A stretch of 64,000 bases of DNA from Kangiella shandongensis (GTDB taxonomy: Bacteria; Pseudomonadota; Gammaproteobacteria; Enterobacterales; Kangiellaceae), in contig NZ_JACNML010000003.1 in NCBI RefSeq assembly GCF_020005365.1, forward strand, positions 124,001 to 188,000, read 5' to 3'. How positions within the stretch are numbered: the first letter of the stretch is position 1; every line of letters begins with the position of its first letter. Under the pieces are notes generated by a model that saw nothing but the letters and a program-made list of their open reading frames with translations, searched no databases and was not told where the DNA came from. Shown one piece after another: positions 10,112-19,067 of this stretch. A program made the position numbers and the translations under genes.

Positions 10112-10131
10112 GGAGTTACGGCTGTAACTCC
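10112..10131 (-). other. Intercistronic hairpin before aroA
   Basis: GGAGTTAC and GTAACTCC form a perfect 8-bp stem with a 4-base loop, overlapping the stop codon of the small upstream gene and lying about 20 bases before the aroA start. There is no T run after it on either strand, so it looks like an mRNA processing or stability stem rather than a terminator. Confidence 0.45.
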
Positions 10132-10358
10132 TCTATTAGCTCTGCAAGTAACTCAATGTCACGATCACTCAAACCATCCGAGTCAACCGCATCTTCGACA
10201 AATAATGCAAACTCGGCAAACCACTGTTCATCAGTCAGGTCATCCGCAGGAATGAGATCCACCATTGGGATCAAATATCCCACTAAAAATAACTTCTCTT
10301 CTTCAACTTCCTGCTCAAGTTGTAATAACCTTTGCTTTATATCATCAGCAATCGACAT
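10116..10358 (-). CDS. Small acidic protein of unknown function between trpA and aroA
   Basis: This is an 80-residue, strongly acidic protein (MSIADDIKQRLL at the start, LLAELIEELQP at the end) that looks all-helical, with no signal peptide, cysteine pair or membrane segment. I do not recognise the family. The ATG at 10358 is preceded by GAGAGAG; a GTG two codons earlier is possible. It sits inside the tryptophan operon, 35 bases after trpA and 24 before aroA, so it is co-transcribed with aromatic biosynthesis genes. Whether it regulates or binds any of them is not visible. Confidence 0.65.
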   Translation of the reverse strand: MSIADDIKQRLLQLEQEVEEEKLFLVGYLIPMVDLIPADDLTDEQWFAEFALFVEDAVDSDGLSDRDIELLAELIEELQP

Positions 10359-10393: not shown

Positions 10394-11215
10394 CTAAGCA
10401 CTTTGGGCATGATTGGTGTGTGCCGCCTGAGCTATTGTTCGGACATAATCCCCAATATGCTCCAGCATAATCTGGGGGGTATTATAATGTCGATTGATCA
10501 AGTTAACTATGGCTGAGCCTGTAATAATTCCATCCACGCCGGCTTTAGCCGCATCAAATACATGTTGTGGCTTAGAAATACCAAAACCCTGTACTAATGG
10601 AGGACTGCCAAAGTTTCTCAGCTTACCGAGAAACTCAGTACTGGCTTTGCTGGCAGCTACTTCGGTTCCAGTAATACCTTTACGGCTTAACACATAGGTA
10701 TACCCTTTACTCGTATTGGCAATTTGCTGTAATGTCTCATCGTTTGCATCGGGCGGAGCAATAAAGACCAGATCAATACCGCTCTCCTCTGCTGCACCAG
10801 CAAATAGTTTAGATTCTTTAACCGGACAGTCCGCAATCAAGATTGAGTCAATTCCAGCATTACAGCACTGATTAAAAAAGCTTTTGATGCCCTGTGCAAA
10901 GACTAAATTGGCATATATCAATAACCCTATAGGTAGCTGCGGATATTTCTCCCGCACTTTAGCAACTAGCCTCAAGCCAGAGCTCACTGAAAACTGATTG
11001 GCTAATGGTCTTAAAATCGACTGCTGTATCACCGGCCCATCGGCCACCGGATCAGAAAAGGCCAAGCCAAGTTCCAGTCCGTCAGCACCATTGGTAACCA
11101 GTTGATCGATAATCTCAAGACTCAATTCCTCATTCGGATCACCAATCACCACAAAAGGAATATACGCCAGGTGACCTTCGTTACGAACCTGTTGAAACAT
11201 CTTACTATAGCGCAT
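10394..11215 (-). CDS. trpA: Tryptophan synthase alpha subunit
   Basis: This subunit cleaves indole-3-glycerol phosphate to indole and glyceraldehyde 3-phosphate. The 273-residue TIM-barrel protein contains the signature [15 protein letters not shown] with the catalytic Glu and Asp. Later it has the phosphate-binding strands [12 protein letters not shown] and [10 protein letters not shown]. The ATG at 11215 has a good AAGGAGAG site; upstream in-frame starts at 11242 lie within trpB and are not needed. The start overlaps the end of trpB by 11 bases, so the two subunits are likely translationally coupled. The order trpB-trpA is the usual one. Confidence 0.97.
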
Positions 11216-12440
11216 TGGAACTCTCCTTCTGGTTTGACTCAAGAATGGACATCACATGCGACAGATCTTTATCGCCTCTCCCCGACAGGTTCACCAACAG
11301 TACCGTTTCTTCGGTCACCTGTTGACTTAGCTTTTTAGCGTAGGCCAGTGCATGTGACGATTCCAGTGCTGGAATAATGCCTTCGGCATGTGACAGCTCC
11401 TGAAAAGCCTGCAGAGCTTCATCATCAGTAATACCAACATATTCAGCACGTCCGGAAGTCATTAGATGCACATGTTCAGGACCAACAGCTGGATAATCGA
11501 GACCCGCGGATACCGAATGCGACTCTATAATTTGCCCTTCTTCTGTCTGTAAAGTATGGGTCCTGGCACCATGAATAATTCCCTCTGTGCCACGTAATAA
11601 GGTCGCTCCATGGGCATCCGAATCGAGGCCGTGTCCCGCTGGCTCAACACCAATCAGGCGAACATCTTCGTCAGGAATAAAATCTGTGAAAATACCAATG
11701 GCATTCGAGCCGCCACCGACACAGGCAATAACGGCATCCGGTAACTGCCCGGTCTGCTGCAAAACCTGCTGCTTGGCTTCTTCACCAATCACCTGCTGAA
11801 AACGTTTAACCATCTTGGGGAACGGATGCGGCCCAGCCGCTGTTCCCAGCAGATAATGGGTATCATCGTAGTTGGCCGCCCAGTCTCGCAAGGCTTCGTT
11901 AATGGCATCTTTAAGGCTGGCACTGCCGTTATCCACCGGAATGACTTCCGCTCCCATCAAACGCATTCGAAAGACATTAGGTGATTGACGATCGCAATCC
12001 TTCTTGCCCATATAAATGGTTGCCTTAAGTCCTAATAAGGCACAGGCCAAAGCCGTTGCCACACCATGTTGCCCAGCTCCAGTTTCAGCGATGATTCGCC
12101 CTTTACCCATACGCTTTGCCAGTAACGCCTGAGCCAACACCTGATTAGTCTTGTGAGCACCACCATGCAATAAATCTTCGCGCTTTAAAAAGATTCGGCA
12201 ATTCTCATTACGTCCAAAAGTCTGACACTCTGTCAGTGGTGTTGGTCGACCGGCATAATCATTAAGCAACTTATTGAGTTCGTCCAGAAACCCCCGGTCA
12301 TCGATAGCCTGTTCAAATGCCTGCTCTAACTGTTCAAGCGCAGGTACCAATATTTGTGGCACAAACTGACCGCCATACTGACCTATATAAGCTCCATCAT
12401 ACTCAAACTTTGAATGCGTTTGTTCTTCAATTATCGTCAT
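11205..12440 (-). CDS. trpB: Tryptophan synthase beta subunit
   Basis: This PLP enzyme condenses indole with serine to form tryptophan. The 411-residue protein begins with the conserved YGGQFVPQ region and carries the PLP lysine in GGAHKTNQ. It also has the ammonia-lyase-like AETGAGQHG loop and the phosphate-binding GGGSNAIG. A site AGAGG precedes the ATG. It follows trpCF by 2 bases and overlaps trpA by 11 bases. All expected catalytic motifs are present and the length is normal. Confidence 0.98.
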
Positions 12441-12442
12441 AA

Positions 12443-13816
12443 TTACCTCTTAACCTCTCTTCCTGACATTGCACGAGCATTAGCAAAAAGAGACTCAATT
12501 TTTTCGATTGATTTCACTCCAGGCTCCCGTTCTGTTCCGCCACAAACATCAATAGCGCTAACCCCCTGCTGTTTGAGCTGAGCAATATTATCAGCGCTCA
12601 CACCGCCAGCCACTCTGATCTGATAATTTGGGTATCGCTGTTTAAACTGCTCAACTAGAGCCCAATCAAAGGTCTTTCCCGTGCCGCCTTTCGTTGCACC
12701 AACCTGAGTATCCAGTAACACTTCGTCAACCGGGTAATCAGCCACTTGAGGTAACGCCTCCCCATCTTTGATAGAAATCACTTTGGATAGCATGCAACCA
12801 TCGGGGAGCGCTTTACGCAGTGACAGCACAAAGTCAACCGACTCATCACCATGTAACTGAACACCTTGCAGATGATATTTCCCAACCGCAGCAAGGACAT
12901 CGTCAAATGGATGGTTTTGGAACACACCAATCACTTTTTTATTGCTGTCAAAACCTTCTGCGTCAACTCGGCGAGGTGAACTATCTACAAATATCATGCC
13001 CACAGAAGCTGCCGGTGTTTTGCTGACTAAATCGGCACTCTGCTGATTCTTAACGCCACACACTTTAATATCGCCATACACCAACTGGCTTGCAGCAGCC
13101 TCCAGGTCGTCCTGAGCCATCAGGCTACTGCCGACCAAGCAGGCATCAGCCATAGGTGATAGCGATAAAACATCATCATGAGTTGCGATGCCAGACTCAG
13201 TTACCACGATTACATCATCAGGAATCAGCTCGATCAGTCGCTCGGTATGTGATAAATCGGTACTTAAATCTTTAAGGTTGCGGTTATTAATGCCAATAAT
13301 CTTCGCATTAAGCTCCAAGGCACGTTGTAGCTCCTGTTCATTGTGCACTTCTGTCAGTATATCTAAACCCAGCTTTTCAGCCTGCGACTGACAGGCTTTA
13401 TACTCCTGATCATTAAGTACGGACAGCATCAACAAAATCGCATCGGCGCCATAAAACCTTGCTTGTCTCACCTGCTTTGGCTCCAGGATAAAGTCTTTGC
13501 ACAACACTGGTTTATCAGTATGTTCACTGACATATTTAAGGTTGGCGTAACTGCCTCGAAAAAATCGTTCTTCCGTTAATACCGAAATCGCATCGGCGTA
13601 TCGATTATAGACCGGGACAATTTCCCCAAGATCAAAGTTAGCTCTGATCAATCCCTTTGAAGGAGACGCCATTTTGCACTCCATAATGAAGCCGAAATGA
13701 GGCTGCTTTAAGGCATCATAAAAACTTCTGGTGCTGCTTGACACTTCATCAACGTCCGAACTATTGGCCAGGGTTTCTCTACGGTGTTCAACAATTGCCT
13801 GTAAAACATTAACCAT
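12443..13816 (-). CDS. trpC: Bifunctional indole-3-glycerol phosphate synthase / phosphoribosylanthranilate isomerase
   Basis: This is a fused TrpC-TrpF protein of 457 residues made of two TIM barrels. The N-terminal half (about 1-255) is indole-3-glycerol phosphate synthase, with [32 protein letters not shown] and VTESGI. The C-terminal half (about 256-457) is the isomerase, with KVCGV, VQLHGDE and [10 protein letters not shown]. The fusion is the enterobacterial and common gammaproteobacterial form. The start, preceded by AAGGAG, overlaps the trpD stop by 8 bases, and the stop lies 2 bases before trpB. Confidence 0.96.
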
Positions 13817-14816
13817 GTGACATCTCCTTAATTTTATTCAGGTGCTCTAAAGCACGTCCTCTTTGGATAATATCCCTGGATAACTGATAACCCTGCTTAT
13901 AATCGTTAGCGACACCGTTAAGCACCAACAATGCTGAACAATTTACCGCAACCATATCAACATGCGCCTCAGGTGCATCTCCACTTAGCAAAGCAATTGC
14001 TGCCGTTTTATTATCTACTCCCTCCGTGACCTGAATCGCCGATAAGTCATGTTGCTTCGCTGAAAAGTGTTGTGGTGAAAGCTCTAACGACTCTATGACA
14101 CCGCTGTTCAAGCTGACGGCTTTAGTTGTGCCGTGAACGGCGATTTCGTCAAGCCCTGAACCATGAACAACCAAAGCTCTTTTTGTTCCAAGCAAATCCA
14201 GGATTTTGGCAAAGGGCAGTAGATACTGTGCGTCATAAACGCCAAGCAGTTGCACATCGGGTAAAGCCGGGTTAGCAAGTGGTCCAATTAAATTAAAAAT
14301 GGTTCTCGTCTTTAACGACTGCCTCACAGGCATAATATGTTTTACCCCTTGATGATAGTCAGGAGCAAATAAAAAACAGAAATTAGTGCTATCCAGTAAC
14401 TGCTTACTCTTCTCGGCTGATAAATTAATGTTAACTCCAAGTTGCTCCATCAAGTCAGCAGAACCACATTTGGAAGAAACGGAACGATTACCGTGTTTGA
14501 CTATTTTCACTCCAGCACAGGCGGCGACTATCGCCACTAAAGTAGAAACATTTATCGTGTTGAGACCATCGCCGCCGGTACCACAGCAGTCACTTATCGA
14601 ATAGTGGGATGATGGAAAATATTGGGCTTCTTGCCGTAAAGCTGCTGCCGCCCCAGCAATTTCTTCCACCGTTTCACCTTTAGTTTTTAGTGCTGCTAAC
14701 ATAGCTGCAACCACTGGCACGTCAATATCACCTTGTAGTACTTCACGGAAAGAGGAACTCGCCTGCTCAAAGTTCAGATGCTGCCCCTGATAGACATTCT
14801 CAAGCAAACTCAGCAT
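13809..14816 (-). CDS. trpD: Anthranilate phosphoribosyltransferase
   Basis: This enzyme transfers phosphoribose from PRPP to anthranilate. The protein of about 335 residues has the glycine-rich PRPP site CGTGGDGLNTINVST, the following KHGNRSVSSKCGSADLMEQLG segment (split here only for description) and GPLANPALP further on. The ATG at 14816 is preceded by GGAGGGCAAGG and gives a normal N-terminus (MLSLLENVYQG); an upstream in-frame ATG at 14867 would place 17 extra residues inside trpG. It overlaps trpG by 17 bases and trpCF by 8. Confidence 0.95.
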   Translation of the reverse strand: MLSLLENVYQGQHLNFEQASSSFREVLQGDIDVPVVAAMLAALKTKGETVEEIAGAAAALRQEAQYFPSSHYSISDCCGTGGDGLNTINVSTLVAIVAACAGVKIVKHGNRSVSSKCGSADLMEQLGVNINLSAEKSKQLLDSTNFCFLFAPDYHQGVKHIMPVRQSLKTRTIFNLIGPLANPALPDVQLLGVYDAQYLLPFAKILDLLGTKRALVVHGSGLDEIAVHGTTKAVSLNSGVIESLELSPQHFSAKQHDLSAIQVTEGVDNKTAAIALLSGDAPEAHVDMVAVNCSALLVLNGVANDYKQGYQLSRDIIQRGRALEHLNKIKEMSHG

Positions 14817-15420
14817 AAGCCTTGCCCTCCGTCTTGACGTGTGGATGGTTGCTTTGCGATAACTCAATAAAGTTAGCCAGTATTTTAGAGCCGTTACGGG
14901 TCATAATACTTTCAGGGTGAAACTGTAAGCCGTAGATCGGATACTCAATATGGGAAACCGCCATGACTTCCTGATCAGCACTTTCAGCGTCAACCCTCAA
15001 AGCTTGTGGTAAATTGATTGCCGCTAGAGAGTGGTAACGCGCCACTCTTACGGTCTTACCAAGCCCTGCCAGCACACCACGATTTTCTGAACGCAGAGTC
15101 TCAGTTTTGCCGTGTACTATTGCTTTAGCAGAGCCAACTTTACCACCAAATGCCTCTACAATGACCTGATGCCCAAGACAAACGCCAAGAAAAGGTTTAT
15201 GTCCGACAAGTTCTTTAACTAAACTTAAACAATGACCCGCGTCTGCCGGTGCTCCTGGCCCTGGGGATATAACAATAACATCAGATAAACGCGCCTGACG
15301 AATTAAAGTTTCGTAGCTAATATCGTTACGGCAGACGACAACTGTATGGCCCATGGACTCCAATTCATAAGTCAGGTTATAAATAAAAGAGTCATAGTTA
15401 TCGATAACTAGTATGTTCAT
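14800..15420 (-). CDS. trpG: Anthranilate synthase glutamine amidotransferase component
   Basis: This class I glutamine amidotransferase supplies ammonia to TrpE. The 206-residue protein starts MNILVIDNYDSFIYNL, has the oxyanion region ISPGPGAP and the catalytic cysteine in LGVCLGHQ, and has the His-Glu pair in YGLQFHPESI. PabA, which serves folate synthesis, is very similar and the gene may also fill that role, since no pabA is visible here. Its start overlaps the trpE stop by 4 bases (ATGA). It is not fused to TrpD, unlike in enteric bacteria. Confidence 0.95.
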   Translation of the reverse strand: MNILVIDNYDSFIYNLTYELESMGHTVVVCRNDISYETLIRQARLSDVIVISPGPGAPADAGHCLSLVKELVGHKPFLGVCLGHQVIVEAFGGKVGSAKAIVHGKTETLRSENRGVLAGLGKTVRVARYHSLAAINLPQALRVDAESADQEVMAVSHIEYPIYGLQFHPESIMTRNGSKILANFIELSQSNHPHVKTEGKAYAEFA

Positions 15421-16988
15421 GCCAGCACCTCCGACTGGGGTAGCTGCTGACGACAGGCATCAATAACAGCTTTCGCTTTATTCACAGTTTCAAGAGCTTC
15501 TGCCTTTGGCTCAGAATCATGAACAATACCCGCACCTGCAGAAATCATCGCCTGGCCATCAGAAACGACCGCAGAACGAATAATAATAGCGCTATCAAAC
15601 TCATCATTGGCATTCATCATACAAATCGCTCCGCCGTAAAAACCACGAGCCAATTTCTCTTGCTGGCGAATAATTTCCATCGCTTTAATTTTTGGAGCAC
15701 CAGTTAAGGTGCCCATGTTGGCACATGCCCGGTAAGCTACTAGTGAATCAATTTCAGGCTTTAACACTCCCTTTATTTCAGAAACCATATGCTGGACATG
15801 AGAGTATTTGATCACTTTTTTCAGCTGAATAATTTCACGCGTCCCCGACTGGACAACTTTAGCCAGATCATTCCGTGCCAGATCAACCAGCATCATATGC
15901 TCGGCATTTTCCTTGGCATCTTCTACTAACTCGAACTCGACTCTGGAATCATGCTCATGATTGATTTGGCCAGTATTTTTATCAATCGCCCGTTTGCGCG
16001 TGCCAGCAATCGGATATAAAAATACTTCGCGTTGTTTATTAACTTTTAACGCACTTTCGGGGCTCGCTCCAAACAGCTGCTTATCACCAAAGTTAACAAA
16101 ATACATATAGGGTGAAGGGTTACTTTGACGAAGCTTACCGTACGCCTGAAAAGGATTAGGACAGGAAATGCCGAATTTTCTGGATAAAACGACCTGGAAG
16201 ATATCACCCTGTTTTATCCTTTCCTTAGCTGCTTCAACAAATCCATAATAATCTTTATCAGACAAATTCAGCGACAATTCGGCATTTTCCTGTTGTGGAG
16301 AAAAGTCTAAAACTTCGGAGACCGAAGCTTCTTTCAATGTGCTATAAGTTGCTTCCAGCTCCACACCTAACCTGACCGTATTCTCGGCATTCTCACCAAA
16401 GCCCTTCACTACGATTTTAGCGTTCTGCCCATCCTGGTTTTGAACAATTATTTGATCAGCAACATAAAAGCAGTAATCTTCCTGGAACTTTTCAACGTCG
16501 GGCAAATCTTCGAATTGCTCTACCAGCTCGTAACTGAAGGCTCCTATCAATAATGATGTTTCGTCATCTGACACCTGACCAACTTTTAGCAAATCTCTGA
16601 TTAACTGCAGAGCACTAATAGTGGTTACTTCAAATAAACGCTCTTGCTCATTATTGACTTCAACAGCTTCCGGACAAATCAAGTGAACGAGGTCACCACC
16701 TTCATATCTTAATTCAAATTGGTTAGCGATCTCTTCACTGGATTTGATCGATGCCAGTATTTCATGACCATTGTGATTAAGTGCTTTTAGTGTGACTTTT
16801 TGATCAAGCGCTCGGATCTGCAAAGCTGCAGATAACATGGTAACGCTTCTGCGGTGCTCGTGTGTTCCGGCCTCAGCAGTCTCTAATAACGCGGTATGCT
16901 CTACACGACCTTTGTCAGTTAATGCTGCGTAAACCTGATATGGGTTCAAGCTCAGAGGAAGCTTTCTACTTATGGTATTAACTTGCAT
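15417..16988 (-). CDS. trpE: Anthranilate synthase component I
   Basis: This chorismate-utilising enzyme forms anthranilate. The 523-residue protein contains the conserved C-terminal motifs LSRKFGI, GTRKRAID, HMMLVDLARNDL, GTLTGAPKIKAME and YGGAICMMN. Near the N-terminus HTALLETAEAG resembles the LLES feedback site where tryptophan binds in TrpE, so allosteric inhibition is likely. The start is taken as the ATG at 16988, which has AAGGAG at 7 bases; an upstream ATG at 17102 would lie deep inside aroF. The start overlaps the aroF stop by 11 bases and the stop overlaps trpG by 4. Confidence 0.96.
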   Translation of the reverse strand: MQVNTISRKLPLSLNPYQVYAALTDKGRVEHTALLETAEAGTHEHRRSVTMLSAALQIRALDQKVTLKALNHNGHEILASIKSSEEIANQFELRYEGGDLVHLICPEAVEVNNEQERLFEVTTISALQLIRDLLKVGQVSDDETSLLIGAFSYELVEQFEDLPDVEKFQEDYCFYVADQIIVQNQDGQNAKIVVKGFGENAENTVRLGVELEATYSTLKEASVSEVLDFSPQQENAELSLNLSDKDYYGFVEAAKERIKQGDIFQVVLSRKFGISCPNPFQAYGKLRQSNPSPYMYFVNFGDKQLFGASPESALKVNKQREVFLYPIAGTRKRAIDKNTGQINHEHDSRVEFELVEDAKENAEHMMLVDLARNDLAKVVQSGTREIIQLKKVIKYSHVQHMVSEIKGVLKPEIDSLVAYRACANMGTLTGAPKIKAMEIIRQQEKLARGFYGGAICMMNANDEFDSAIIIRSAVVSDGQAMISAGAGIVHDSEPKAEALETVNKAKAVIDACRQQLPQSEVLA

Positions 16989-18012
16989 GATTAAACTCCT
17001 TATAGGTACGACCGCTTGCCTTAATAAATGGCAATAGCTGTTGCATAAGCTCTGAAAAGTCATCAGCAGATAAAGCCTGAGCCGCATCTGAAACAGATTC
17101 ACGAGGATTTCTATGTGACTCGATAATCAGGCCATCTGCGCCGCAGGCAACTCCAGCCTTGGCCATTGGGCTGACTAAAGTACGGACGCCGGTACCGTGG
17201 GATGGATCGACAATCACAGGTAAATGACTTTTCTCTTTAATGTAAGCAACCGCGTTTAAATCAAGCGTATTACGGGTAGCCGTTTCAAAAGTACGGATCC
17301 CACGTTCACAAATCATAACGTTCGGGTTACCCGTTGCCACGATGTACTCAGCCGCCAATAATAATTCTTCAATCGTGGCTGAAAGACCACGCTTTAATAG
17401 TACCGGGTGCTTTGTCTCCCCCACGGCCTTTAGTAGAGTGTAATTCTGCATATTTCTGGCGCCAATCTGGAAAGCCGAGATATGAGTAGCAATGTCATCG
17501 AGATCTTTGATATCCATGATTTCGGTGATGGTATCCATGCCGACCTCCTTACCGACCTGTTGCATAATCTTGAGACCCTCCAAGCCCAGCCCCTGAAATG
17601 AATAAGGGCTGGTTCTTGGCTTAAAAGCGCCACCTCGAAGGACAGTTGCGCCACTGGCTTTAACTTGCTTGGCTGTTTCCAGCAACTGGTCGTAACTTTC
17701 AATGGCACAGGGGCCCGCCATAATGGCAAATTGATCGCCGCCGACAGGCGTGTTTCCCACTGAGATCACTGTGTCATGGGGATAAATTTCGCGGCTGACG
17801 AGCTTGTATTTGCTTAGAACCGGCTTTACATGTTCAACCTGTGGATGGTTGTCTAAATGTAAAGACTGCAGAATACGTTCGTCGCCAAGCGCCCCTATAA
17901 CCGTACGTTCTACTCCCGGCATATGCAGTGGCTTTAAACCAGACTGCTCAATCTGGTTTAAAATTTCTTTAGAATCGGCTTCTGTAGCCGTTGGTTTTAA
18001 AATAATAATCAT
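16978..18012 (-). CDS. aroF: DAHP synthase, class I-beta with N-terminal regulatory domain
   Basis: This enzyme condenses phosphoenolpyruvate with erythrose 4-phosphate, the entry step to the shikimate pathway. At 344 residues it has an N-terminal ferredoxin/ACT-like domain of about 70 residues ([13 protein letters not shown]...). The barrel follows, with [39 protein letters not shown] and VDPSHGTG. This is the I-beta type with an attached regulatory domain, as in Thermotoga. The ATG at 18012 has AGGA at 7 bases; the GTG just upstream is less likely. As the first structural gene behind the tandem trp attenuator, its expression should track tryptophan supply. Confidence 0.95.
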
Positions 18013-18048
18013 CACTGGTTCCTATAAAGTTAAAAATTCATCAGGTAT

Positions 18049-18076
18049 AAAAAAAGCCCGCACAATGGCGGGCTTT
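18049..18076 (-). terminator. trp attenuator 2 (intrinsic terminator before aroF)
   Basis: On the minus strand AAAGCCCGC and GCGGGCTTT form a 9-bp stem around a 6-base loop, followed by seven Ts. It sits after leader peptide 2 and 37 bases before aroF. GGTGGGTT, just after the leader stop codon, can pair with the 5' arm (two G-U pairs), giving a possible antiterminator. Confidence 0.85.
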
Positions 18077-18104
18077 TGTCGATTTCAACAGACAATAACC
18101 CACC

Positions 18105-18164
18105 CTAGTGAATCCACCACCATGCAAATGTAGTTACACTGAAAAGGGTTGTTACTGTCATCAT
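18105..18164 (-). CDS. trpL: trp operon leader peptide 2
   Basis: This is a 19-residue leader peptide, MMTVTTLFSVTTFAWWWIH, with AAGGA five bases before the first ATG. Three consecutive TGG codons lie near the end, and the stop falls just before GGTGGGTT, which is complementary to the attenuator arm. In classical trp attenuation a ribosome stalled at Trp codons for lack of charged tRNA-Trp favours the antiterminator and lets transcription enter the operon. Nothing else in a peptide this short would explain a Trp triplet. Position directly before an intrinsic terminator and aroF-trpE supports the call. Confidence 0.88.
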   Translation of the reverse strand: MMTVTTLFSVTTFAWWWIH

Positions 18165-18202
18165 TAATTCCTTACTAACTGCCTTTGATTTCGTTCAGAC
18201 AT

Positions 18203-18229
18203 AAAAAAAGCCCGCACAATGCGGGCTTT
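18203..18229 (-). terminator. trp attenuator 1 (intrinsic terminator between the two leader peptides)
   Basis: The stem arms AAAGCCCGC and GCGGGCTTT are identical to those of attenuator 2, with a 5-base loop and seven Ts on the minus strand. A GCGGGC at 18259-18264 (minus strand), just after leader peptide 1, can pair with the 5' arm to form an antiterminator. It may also stop read-through from the ParA-like gene. Confidence 0.8.
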
Positions 18230-18267
18230 AGGTATTCATTTCGTATATACGCAAAGGTGCCCGCTAC

Positions 18268-18315
18268 CTATGTAACGTGCCACCACCAGATGCTTTTAAC
18301 GTATAAACTTTCCAT
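18268..18315 (-). CDS. trpL: trp operon leader peptide 1
   Basis: This is a 15-residue leader peptide, MESLYVKSIWWWHVT, with three consecutive TGG codons, unrelated in sequence to leader 2 apart from the Trp triplet. It is followed by an antiterminator-capable GCGGGC and by attenuator 1. No ribosome binding site is visible; the predicted -10 box ends only 7 bases before the ATG, so the message may be leaderless, as reported for trpL of some alphaproteobacteria. The Trp codon run GGTG can pair with CACC in the next strand, as expected for the 1:2 structure. Confidence 0.78.
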   Translation of the reverse strand: MESLYVKSIWWWHVT

Positions 18316-18322
18316 AGTTCGT

Positions 18323-18351
18323 AAGCTAATCGAAATTCCTGAAGAGGTCAA
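18323..18351 (-). promoter_or_regulatory. Candidate sigma-70 promoter for the trp leader
   Basis: On the minus strand TTGACC (18351-18346) and TAGCTT (18328-18323) are 17 bases apart. The -35 matches consensus at five of six positions, the -10 at three. It lies immediately after the ParA-like gene and just before leader peptide 1. Confidence 0.5.
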
Positions 18352-18356
18352 GGCTT

Positions 18357-19067
18357 TTATTTACCTTTCACAAATTTTTCAACCTGGGCTTCTGTTTTAA
18401 GTCGTGTGTTCCCCTGCTTTGCTAATAACCGCTCAATGCTCGACGTTAATGCCCATATTTCCAGTTTGGCTGCGGCATCATGCCATTCGGCTACGGTTAA
18501 CCCCTCAGCAAAAGAATCGAGATAGGCCACACGGTTTCCCAGCTTGGTAGAAAACTCTTCTAGATCAAGTTCTTTCTTGGCACTGGCAACCACGTCATCC
18601 GCAGAGCTGGTTCGGACACGATAACGATTCCAGCAAATTCGAGCTTCCAGCTTATTGTTCACCTGCTTTGCTTCTTCAACGATTTCAGCCAGATGCTTGG
18701 TTGACCAGACTTCGACCTGGGATGGAGCCATAGGGATTAACACCATATCGGATAAGAGAATAACGGCGCGGGTGAGATTGGTAATTCGAGGATGACCATC
18801 TATCAAGATATAATCGTAGTCATTGATTTTATCACGTACAATAGACTGCAGGTGCTTTAAGTTTTTAGCGACTAAAACATCAAGATTTTCAATGATATAT
18901 TGTTCATTGCGTATATCAAACCAGGTCTTCAGGGAGCTCTGCGGGACGTCTGTATCAATCATCAAGACATTACCCGATTCAGATAAGGTTGATGCAATAT
19001 TCGAGCACAGGGTGGTTTTCCCGGCCCCTCCTTTCATTTGAACAAAGCTCAATACTTTCGCACGCAC
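18357..19067 (-). CDS. Orphan ParA/Soj-type P-loop ATPase
   Basis: This 236-residue ATPase of the MinD/ParA superfamily begins with a deviant Walker A motif, MKGGAGKTTL at about residues 11-20, and has IDTDVPQSSLKTWF and DYILIDGHPRI (Walker B) as expected. Such proteins position cargo such as plasmids, chemoreceptor arrays or pilus machinery. No ParB partner is adjacent. The neighbours are pilus genes on one side and the trp leader on the other, both on the same strand. The GTG start has GGGAG six bases upstream. Its cargo is unknown; a pilus link is only a positional guess. Confidence 0.85.
   Translation of the reverse strand: MRAKVLSFVQMKGGAGKTTLCSNIASTLSESGNVLMIDTDVPQSSLKTWFDIRNEQYIIENLDVLVAKNLKHLQSIVRDKINDYDYILIDGHPRITNLTRAVILLSDMVLIPMAPSQVEVWSTKHLAEIVEEAKQVNNKLEARICWNRYRVRTSSADDVVASAKKELDLEEFSTKLGNRVAYLDSFAEGLTVAEWHDAAAKLEIWALTSSIERLLAKQGNTRLKTEAQVEKFVKGK

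Follow-up and report, generated by a model that had tools for sequence, protein, structure and literature searches.

Two tandem putative tryptophan attenuators precede the aroF-trp operon of Kangiella shandongensis

RESULTS

Organization of the aroF-trp leader region

The window analyzed here, a stretch of 64,000 nucleotides (nt) from Kangiella shandongensis, carries an operon for tryptophan biosynthesis on its minus strand. The first gene, aroF (16978-18012, ATG at 18012), encodes a B. subtilis-type 3-deoxy-7-phosphoheptulonate (DAHP) synthase (NF006421, 474 bits against a cut-off of 335). It is followed by trpE, trpG, trpD, trpC/F, trpB, and trpA (10394-17102), which were assigned by NCBIfam matches, with the trpE start lying inside the listed open reading frame (ORF). 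Beyond trpA lie an 80-amino-acid ORF (10116-10358, minus strand) that gave no NCBIfam match, then aroA and a putative aroC, the last assigned by reading the ORF.

Two units, each composed of a short leader ORF with three consecutive Trp codons and a terminator, are located ahead of these biosynthesis genes on the same strand. The first unit is preceded by a promoter motif, P1 (18351-18323), made up of TTGACC (18351-18346), a 17-nt spacer, and TAGCTT (18328-18323), with 7 nt separating it from the ATG of leader 1. Leader ORF 1 (18315-18268) encodes the 15-residue peptide MESLYVKSIWWWHVT and is followed by terminator 1 with its T tract (18229-18203), the stem of which (18229-18207) has 10 pairs, a folding energy of -15.5 kcal/mol, and a z score of -5.0. 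Leader ORF 2 (18164-18105), which has AAGGA ahead of it, encodes the 19-residue peptide MMTVTTLFSVTTFAWWWIH, and terminator 2 with its T tract (18076-18049) has a 9-pair stem (18076-18053; -14.7 kcal/mol, z score of -4.1). The two terminators share the same arms, AAAGCCCGC and GCGGGCTTT. Rereading of the sequence bore out the positions that an earlier note on this DNA had given for both leaders and both terminators, together with its statement that the stem arms of the second terminator are identical to those of the first.

Chance occurrence and searches for known RNA families

A strict detector was used that calls a unit where an ORF with WW is followed within 110 nt by a terminator with a perfect stem; because both WW and a perfect stem are demanded, a result of no unit does not equate to absence of an attenuator. 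The detector recovers a leader that we take to be of the E. coli type. Applied to both strands of the window, it returned these two units and nothing more. Dinucleotide shuffling of the upstream region (700 nt) produced at least one unit in 2 of 2,000 shuffles and two units in 0 of 2,000. The shuffles and the empty remainder of the window rule out a chance origin of the two units. A default consensus scan listed terminator 1 and listed neither terminator 2 nor any promoter.

At the gathering score, no Rfam family, T-box included, was called in the 64-kb window, which sets aside a T-box or another known RNA family as the identity of the region. The Trp_leader model RF00513 aligned over its full length to both units, at 31.7 bits (18202-18291) and 27.6 bits (18048-18128); both scores fall below the gathering score of 41 bits, so the units are not filed under RF00513. 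In a permissive Rfam search of positions 17950 to 18450, T-box was absent among the matches listed, and other leader families also scored on unit 2, with Thr_leader (32.7 bits) above Trp_leader. These permissive scores therefore speak for an attenuator-like shape and not for Trp identity.

Competing pairings in both units

Folding of unit 1 gave a 1:2 hairpin (18262-18277, minus strand) in which CGTTAC pairs with GTAGCG and the stop codon lies in the loop. Region 2, GCGGGC (18259-18264), pairs with the GCCCGC of region 3 (18226-18221) in the 2:3 form, and the same GCCCGC pairs with the GCGGGC of region 4 in the 3:4 form. In unit 2, the 1:2 pairing joins GATTCAC with GTGGGTT around the stop codon, the 2:3 pairing joins GGTGGGTT (18097-18104), located immediately past the leader 2 stop codon, with AGCCCGCC and carries a 5-bp extension, and the 3:4 pairing is the terminator. 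The 2:3 folds reach -13.7 kcal/mol in unit 1 and -18.9 kcal/mol in unit 2 when region 4 has yet to be made, which agrees with the suggestion that GCGGGC after leader 1 is capable of antitermination. When all regions are present, the terminator forms win in both units. The classical competing layout of 1:2, 2:3, and 3:4 pairings is present twice at this locus, and the anatomy, the folds, and the shuffles together confirm the observation of two complete tandem Trp leader units, each with a WWW peptide.

The 2:3 helix, which joins the stretch after the Trp codons to the 5' arm of the terminator, was compared with shuffles that keep single-base composition only. The P values were 0.005 and 0.015 for the two units of the window against these mononucleotide shuffles. 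Across all families, with lone units counted as first units and unit 1 of locus L024 scored as a miss after a spurious longer ORF had been taken, the helix was significant (P < 0.05) in 78 of 96 units, namely, 48/57 first and 30/39 second units, and not significant in 9/57 and 9/39, respectively.

Alignments of the Kangiella genomes added pairing evidence. For the 1:2 and 3:4 helices of unit 1, 96.9% of alignment cells were paired (slid versions, at most 50.6%), with two pairs showing double-sided changes; for 1:2 alone, every cell was paired in 20 genomes, with one double-sided change. The unit 1 2:3 helix was paired in 92.1% of cells and its core is invariant, hence the lack of covariation. 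In unit 2, the 2:3 helix was paired in 88.8% of cells with three double-sided-change pairs, a number of pairs reached by 137 of 500 shuffles and a number of cells reached by 20 of 500, and the 3:4 helix was paired in 100% of cells with one such pair. Among the units of all families, regions 2, 3, and 4 of unit 1 are jointly changed to ACGGG, CCCGT, and ACGGG in five genomes (G036, G033, G027, G034, and G032), and unit 2 retains CCCGC in all five. Overall, the pairing evidence offers supportive but modest backing for the predicted attenuator folds.

Conservation in Kangiella and its family

The two strict units are present in all 20 Kangiella genomes (genus g1). Both leaders keep at least WW in every one of these genomes, which answers the concern that relatives might lack the Trp triplets; WWW is found in leader 1 of 15 and in leader 2 of 17. 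The first Trp codon of leader 1 always lies 9 codons past the ATG (20/20).

The family sample comprised 40 genomes, of which G031 and G062 were left out because aroF lies at a contig edge, and two strict units were found in 31 of the 38 readable genomes: 20/20 in g1, 0/1 in g2, 4/5 in g3, 1/6 in g4, 5/5 in g5, and 1/1 in g6. The departures take several forms. The second unit of G026 carries WRW, both terminators are present in G020 and G022 but the second leader there contains a single Trp, and G029 (L126, g4) keeps one terminator and has a leader with an in-frame TGA stop ahead of RWW(Q), these leader details being read by eye; G025, G035, and G063 have one unit each. The seven genomes of 38 without two strict units indicate that the second unit is dispensable in places and can be lost.

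Short repeats around CCAGGGATGGACTG were seen between the last attenuator and aroF at three loci of g4 (L119, L120, and L121). At these same loci, the second unit is missing (L119 and L121) or pushed far upstream (L120).

A promoter motif upstream of leader 1 only

The pattern TTGACN-17-YAnnnT, separated from the in-frame ATG of leader 1 by 6 nt in 8 genomes and by 7 nt in 12, was found in 20/20 Kangiella genomes, the motif having been derived from these same sequences. A looser version of the pattern, allowing 5 to 9 nt and any frame, occurred in 7 of 4,000 shuffled upstream regions. A generic promoter score ranked another site first in 2 of the 20 (L003 and L008), in which the P1 motif is present too.

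One way to account for the locus would be two parallel promoters, with a second start between the hairpins producing a transcript that meets attenuator 2 only. The generic consensus score does report weak sites between the units (5 to 9 of 12 matches), and promoters of other types are possible by sequence. However, these weak sites lie at scattered positions, most of them overlapping leader 2, and none of the 20 genomes has a TTGAC-type motif in the stretch from terminator 1 through leader 2. A second promoter between the units is therefore not supported, the promoter motif being found upstream of leader 1 only, and we consider parallel promoters quite improbable. The P1 motif upstream and the lack of a TTGAC-type motif between the units suggest that the two units most likely lie in series on one transcript.

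The P1 motif also bears on the proposal that unit 2 alone controls the operon, hairpin 1 being the terminator of a ParA-like gene and leader 1 incidental. A ParA-like ORF is indeed located upstream on the same strand, and hairpin 1 follows it by approximately 130 nt. Against this proposal, all 20 Kangiella genomes retain leader 1, the 1:2 and 2:3 pairings of unit 1, and the preceding promoter motif, and Trp-rich first leaders were found in other families also. A role for hairpin 1 as a ParA terminator only is not supported by the P1 motif or by the conservation of leader 1, and we regard it as extremely improbable.

Typical sigma-70 spacing would place the start of transcription on the ATG of leader 1 or roughly one base ahead of it. 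From the 6 to 7 nt between the -10-like element and the ATG, the leader 1 mRNA would probably be leaderless. In this respect it would resemble trpL of S. meliloti, the RNA of which starts at the trpL ATG and where, according to the available text of that report, trpE is attenuated without transcriptional repression (PMC7298713). The S. meliloti system, rnTrpL, has a single attenuator, unlike the two described here, and has documented trans functions (PMC7298713). By analogy with rnTrpL and peTrpL, unit 1 might act mainly in trans, through a terminated RNA of approximately 110 nt or through its peptide, and leave control in cis mostly to unit 2. Besides the leaderless appearance of leader 1, the greater conservation of unit 1 within the genus (mean column identity of 71% versus 57% for unit 2) would fit such a role. 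However, the conserved parts are those that attenuation in cis needs, and roles in cis and in trans are compatible; a mainly trans-acting unit 1 is accordingly judged very improbable.

A strict Shine-Dalgarno-like motif precedes leader 2 in 4 of the 20 Kangiella genomes, the window being among those with AAGGA, and the general statement that leader 2 has a Shine-Dalgarno sequence was dropped. This count also lowered our estimate for a two-input gate, as opposed to a duplicate switch, in which a leaderless leader 1 and a leader 2 started internally past terminator 1 would make full expression depend on both Trp scarcity and a suitable initiation state, the pair standing in for TrpR as a second control layer and the terminated RNAs possibly acting in trans. 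We consider such a gate rather unlikely.

Proposed model of serial attenuation

The reading that we favor, with a probability of roughly 85%, is that two ribosome-mediated Trp attenuators act in series on one transcript. It is favored by an architecture that is kept in 20/20 Kangiella genomes and beyond the genus, by the helix that each unit can form with its terminator 5' arm shortly past the Trp codons, and by the promoter motif found upstream only. On this model, polymerase would initiate from P1, either on the leader 1 AUG itself or roughly one base ahead of it. With an ample supply of charged tRNA-Trp, the ribosome would travel as far as the stop codon of leader 1, region 2 would be unavailable, the 3:4 hairpin would form, and transcription would end at about 18203. 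When charged tRNA-Trp is scarce, the ribosome would stall on WWW and mask region 1, 2:3 would pair, and polymerase would continue. It would then meet a second, separately initiated leader that obeys the same logic, such that a second escape would be needed at about 18049. Since both attenuators would read the same tRNA, we infer that read-through into aroF-trp would approximate the product of the two units. Such multiplicative behavior would allow less leakage in the presence of Trp and give a larger or steeper response to the charging of tRNA-Trp, as has been proposed for tandem T-boxes (PMC12452182), in genomes where no TrpR was detected.

Kangiella is described, in the available text of one report, as having high potential to degrade proteins extracellularly (PMC6000758). 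An external supply of Trp may therefore be frequent, and a tight shut-off would fit such a supply.

Comparison with known systems

Attenuation of trp genes is a textbook mechanism and is taught as a single switch; in the E. coli-type arrangement, one attenuator unit is combined with TrpR at the promoter. The units described here share with the E. coli-type trpL (RF00513) a short ORF in which Trp codons are consecutive, the competition among 1:2, 2:3, and 3:4 pairings, and an intrinsic terminator before trp genes. They differ in that there are two of them, aroF comes first, no TrpR was detected, and their scores lie below the RF00513 gathering score.

Serial elements are known from other kinds of leaders, which are compared here as far as the available text of each report goes. 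Tandem and even triple T-boxes occur on trp operons of Firmicutes as serial elements sensing the same tRNA, for which the authors anticipate a digital, pseudo-cooperative response (PMC12452182); double T-boxes are also described elsewhere (PMC9413887). The Kangiella units share with these the serial order, the sensing of the same tRNA, and the position before trp genes. Unlike T-boxes, in which the RNA binds tRNA directly with no leader peptide and no ribosome stalling, they have leader peptides. In the Salmonella mgtCBR leader, the nearest ribosome-based case, two short ORFs each control transcription of the coding region in response to two signals, ATP and proline, a case that its authors call a "singular example" and set against a leader with two terminator sites (PMC3641672). 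In contrast to mgtCBR, the codons read here are Trp codons in both units, and there is one terminator per unit. The rimP leader of some Gammaproteobacteria has two tandem terminators, of which the upstream terminator may have an antiterminator, and the signal is thought to involve NusA (PMC2965389); no Trp leader peptide is described in the available text on rimP, whereas Trp leaders are present here.

In the open-access literature searched, as far as its available text extends, we found no report of tandem ribosome-mediated trp attenuators responding to the same signal. The assertion in the earlier note that the trp operons known so far rely on one attenuator consequently holds for the ribosome-mediated type within that literature but not for trp operons at large, tandem and triple T-boxes having been published (PMC12452182).

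Since close relatives keep the double arrangement, it appears to be a genuine variant of the classic gene control mechanism. With a conserved series of two switches, one could test directly whether attenuators placed in series multiply a response, sharpen it, or just insure it, and how trp genes are controlled in bacteria in which no TrpR is detected. The double leader occurs in Kangiella, a genus with culturable type strains.

Distribution outside the family

Outside the family, 22 sampled genomes of the order have this aroF, and 21 were read, G048 being left out because of a contig edge. Two strict units were found in 5/5 genomes of family f15 and 3/3 of f14, so that comparison of the locus in related genomes supports the tandem arrangement from the genus (20/20) through the family (31/38) to these two families (8/8). 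By eye, the single f13 genome shows two WWW stretches along with a pair of terminators, and the single f4 genome has two leaders with an imperfect second hairpin. All genomes of f7 (5/5) and f25 (2/2) have two Trp peptides with a terminator after the first only, those of f6 (3/3) have one unit, and the single f23 genome has no strict unit. One unit each was also found at 10 of 10 named loci (L034 to L043) from Photobacterium, Enterovibrio, Salinivibrio, and Veronia.

At the five aroF loci of f7 (L113, L114, L116, L131, and L139), the second Trp peptide is MLTTKVKSWFIWWLQPIYAG or a close variant, has no terminator, and ends 27 to 33 nt before aroF. This peptide may be what is left of a second attenuator, or it may exert translational control of aroF.

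A census of other trpE upstream regions in the order covered 53 regions, hand-picked for spread among the best-scoring matches listed and hence drawn only from families with matches there; 18 had no strict unit, 34 had one, and 1 had two. In this hand-picked set, the tandem arrangement is thus rare outside the families with the double leader. The sole tandem among the 53, in G266 (L210, f7), consists of two WWW leaders and two terminators directly before trpE and is possibly of independent origin. Four of four f11 loci (L198 to L201) have one attenuator (SWWHSFS) and a second short ORF that ends in WRWQ and has no terminator.

Every aroF locus tested has trpE next after aroF except that of G058, the test leaving out L119 to L127 (nine family genomes with too little DNA) and the named loci L044 to L111. 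In G058 (L140 and L158; f23), where no trpE follows aroF, the leader peptide has a high content of Phe and Tyr (MNLSHQYFYFFGWFCSHS...) and not of Trp, and is followed by one terminator. This locus provides a naturally occurring control for the association of Trp leaders with trp genes.

TrpR and further DAHP synthases

A search for TrpR (TIGR01321, E ≤ 0.001) gave no match in the genomes of f1, f4, f7, f13, f14, f15, f23, and f25 within a sample of 394 genomes, which is exclusive of family genomes G002, G003, G020, G035, and G063. All tandem cases in this sample are in genomes without a TrpR match, and TrpR is found together with one attenuator in the three aroF-trp genomes of f6. The association of tandem attenuators with the lack of TrpR is only a correlation and is confounded by descent. 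One-attenuator genomes without a TrpR match exist in f7 and f9, which weakens the idea that the tandem arrangement replaces TrpR as a strict rule.

We also looked for a TrpR operator, using as the query a 12-nt core (CTAGTTAACTAG). An operator at P1 was rejected, the best match to this core in the genus having 3 to 5 mismatches. For comparison, among the ten named loci L034 to L043, L034 matches the same core with 3 mismatches and the other nine match it with 0 to 1.

Two other DAHP synthases are encoded in the genome, an aroFGH-type enzyme beside a pheA-like ORF (read by eye) and a class II enzyme (PF01474). The aroF of the operon is thus not the sole DAHP synthase, as it would have to be for all aromatic synthesis to fall under Trp attenuation, and given the two further enzymes it is plausibly the Trp-branch isoform. 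The third PF00793 protein of the genome is a KDO8P synthase.
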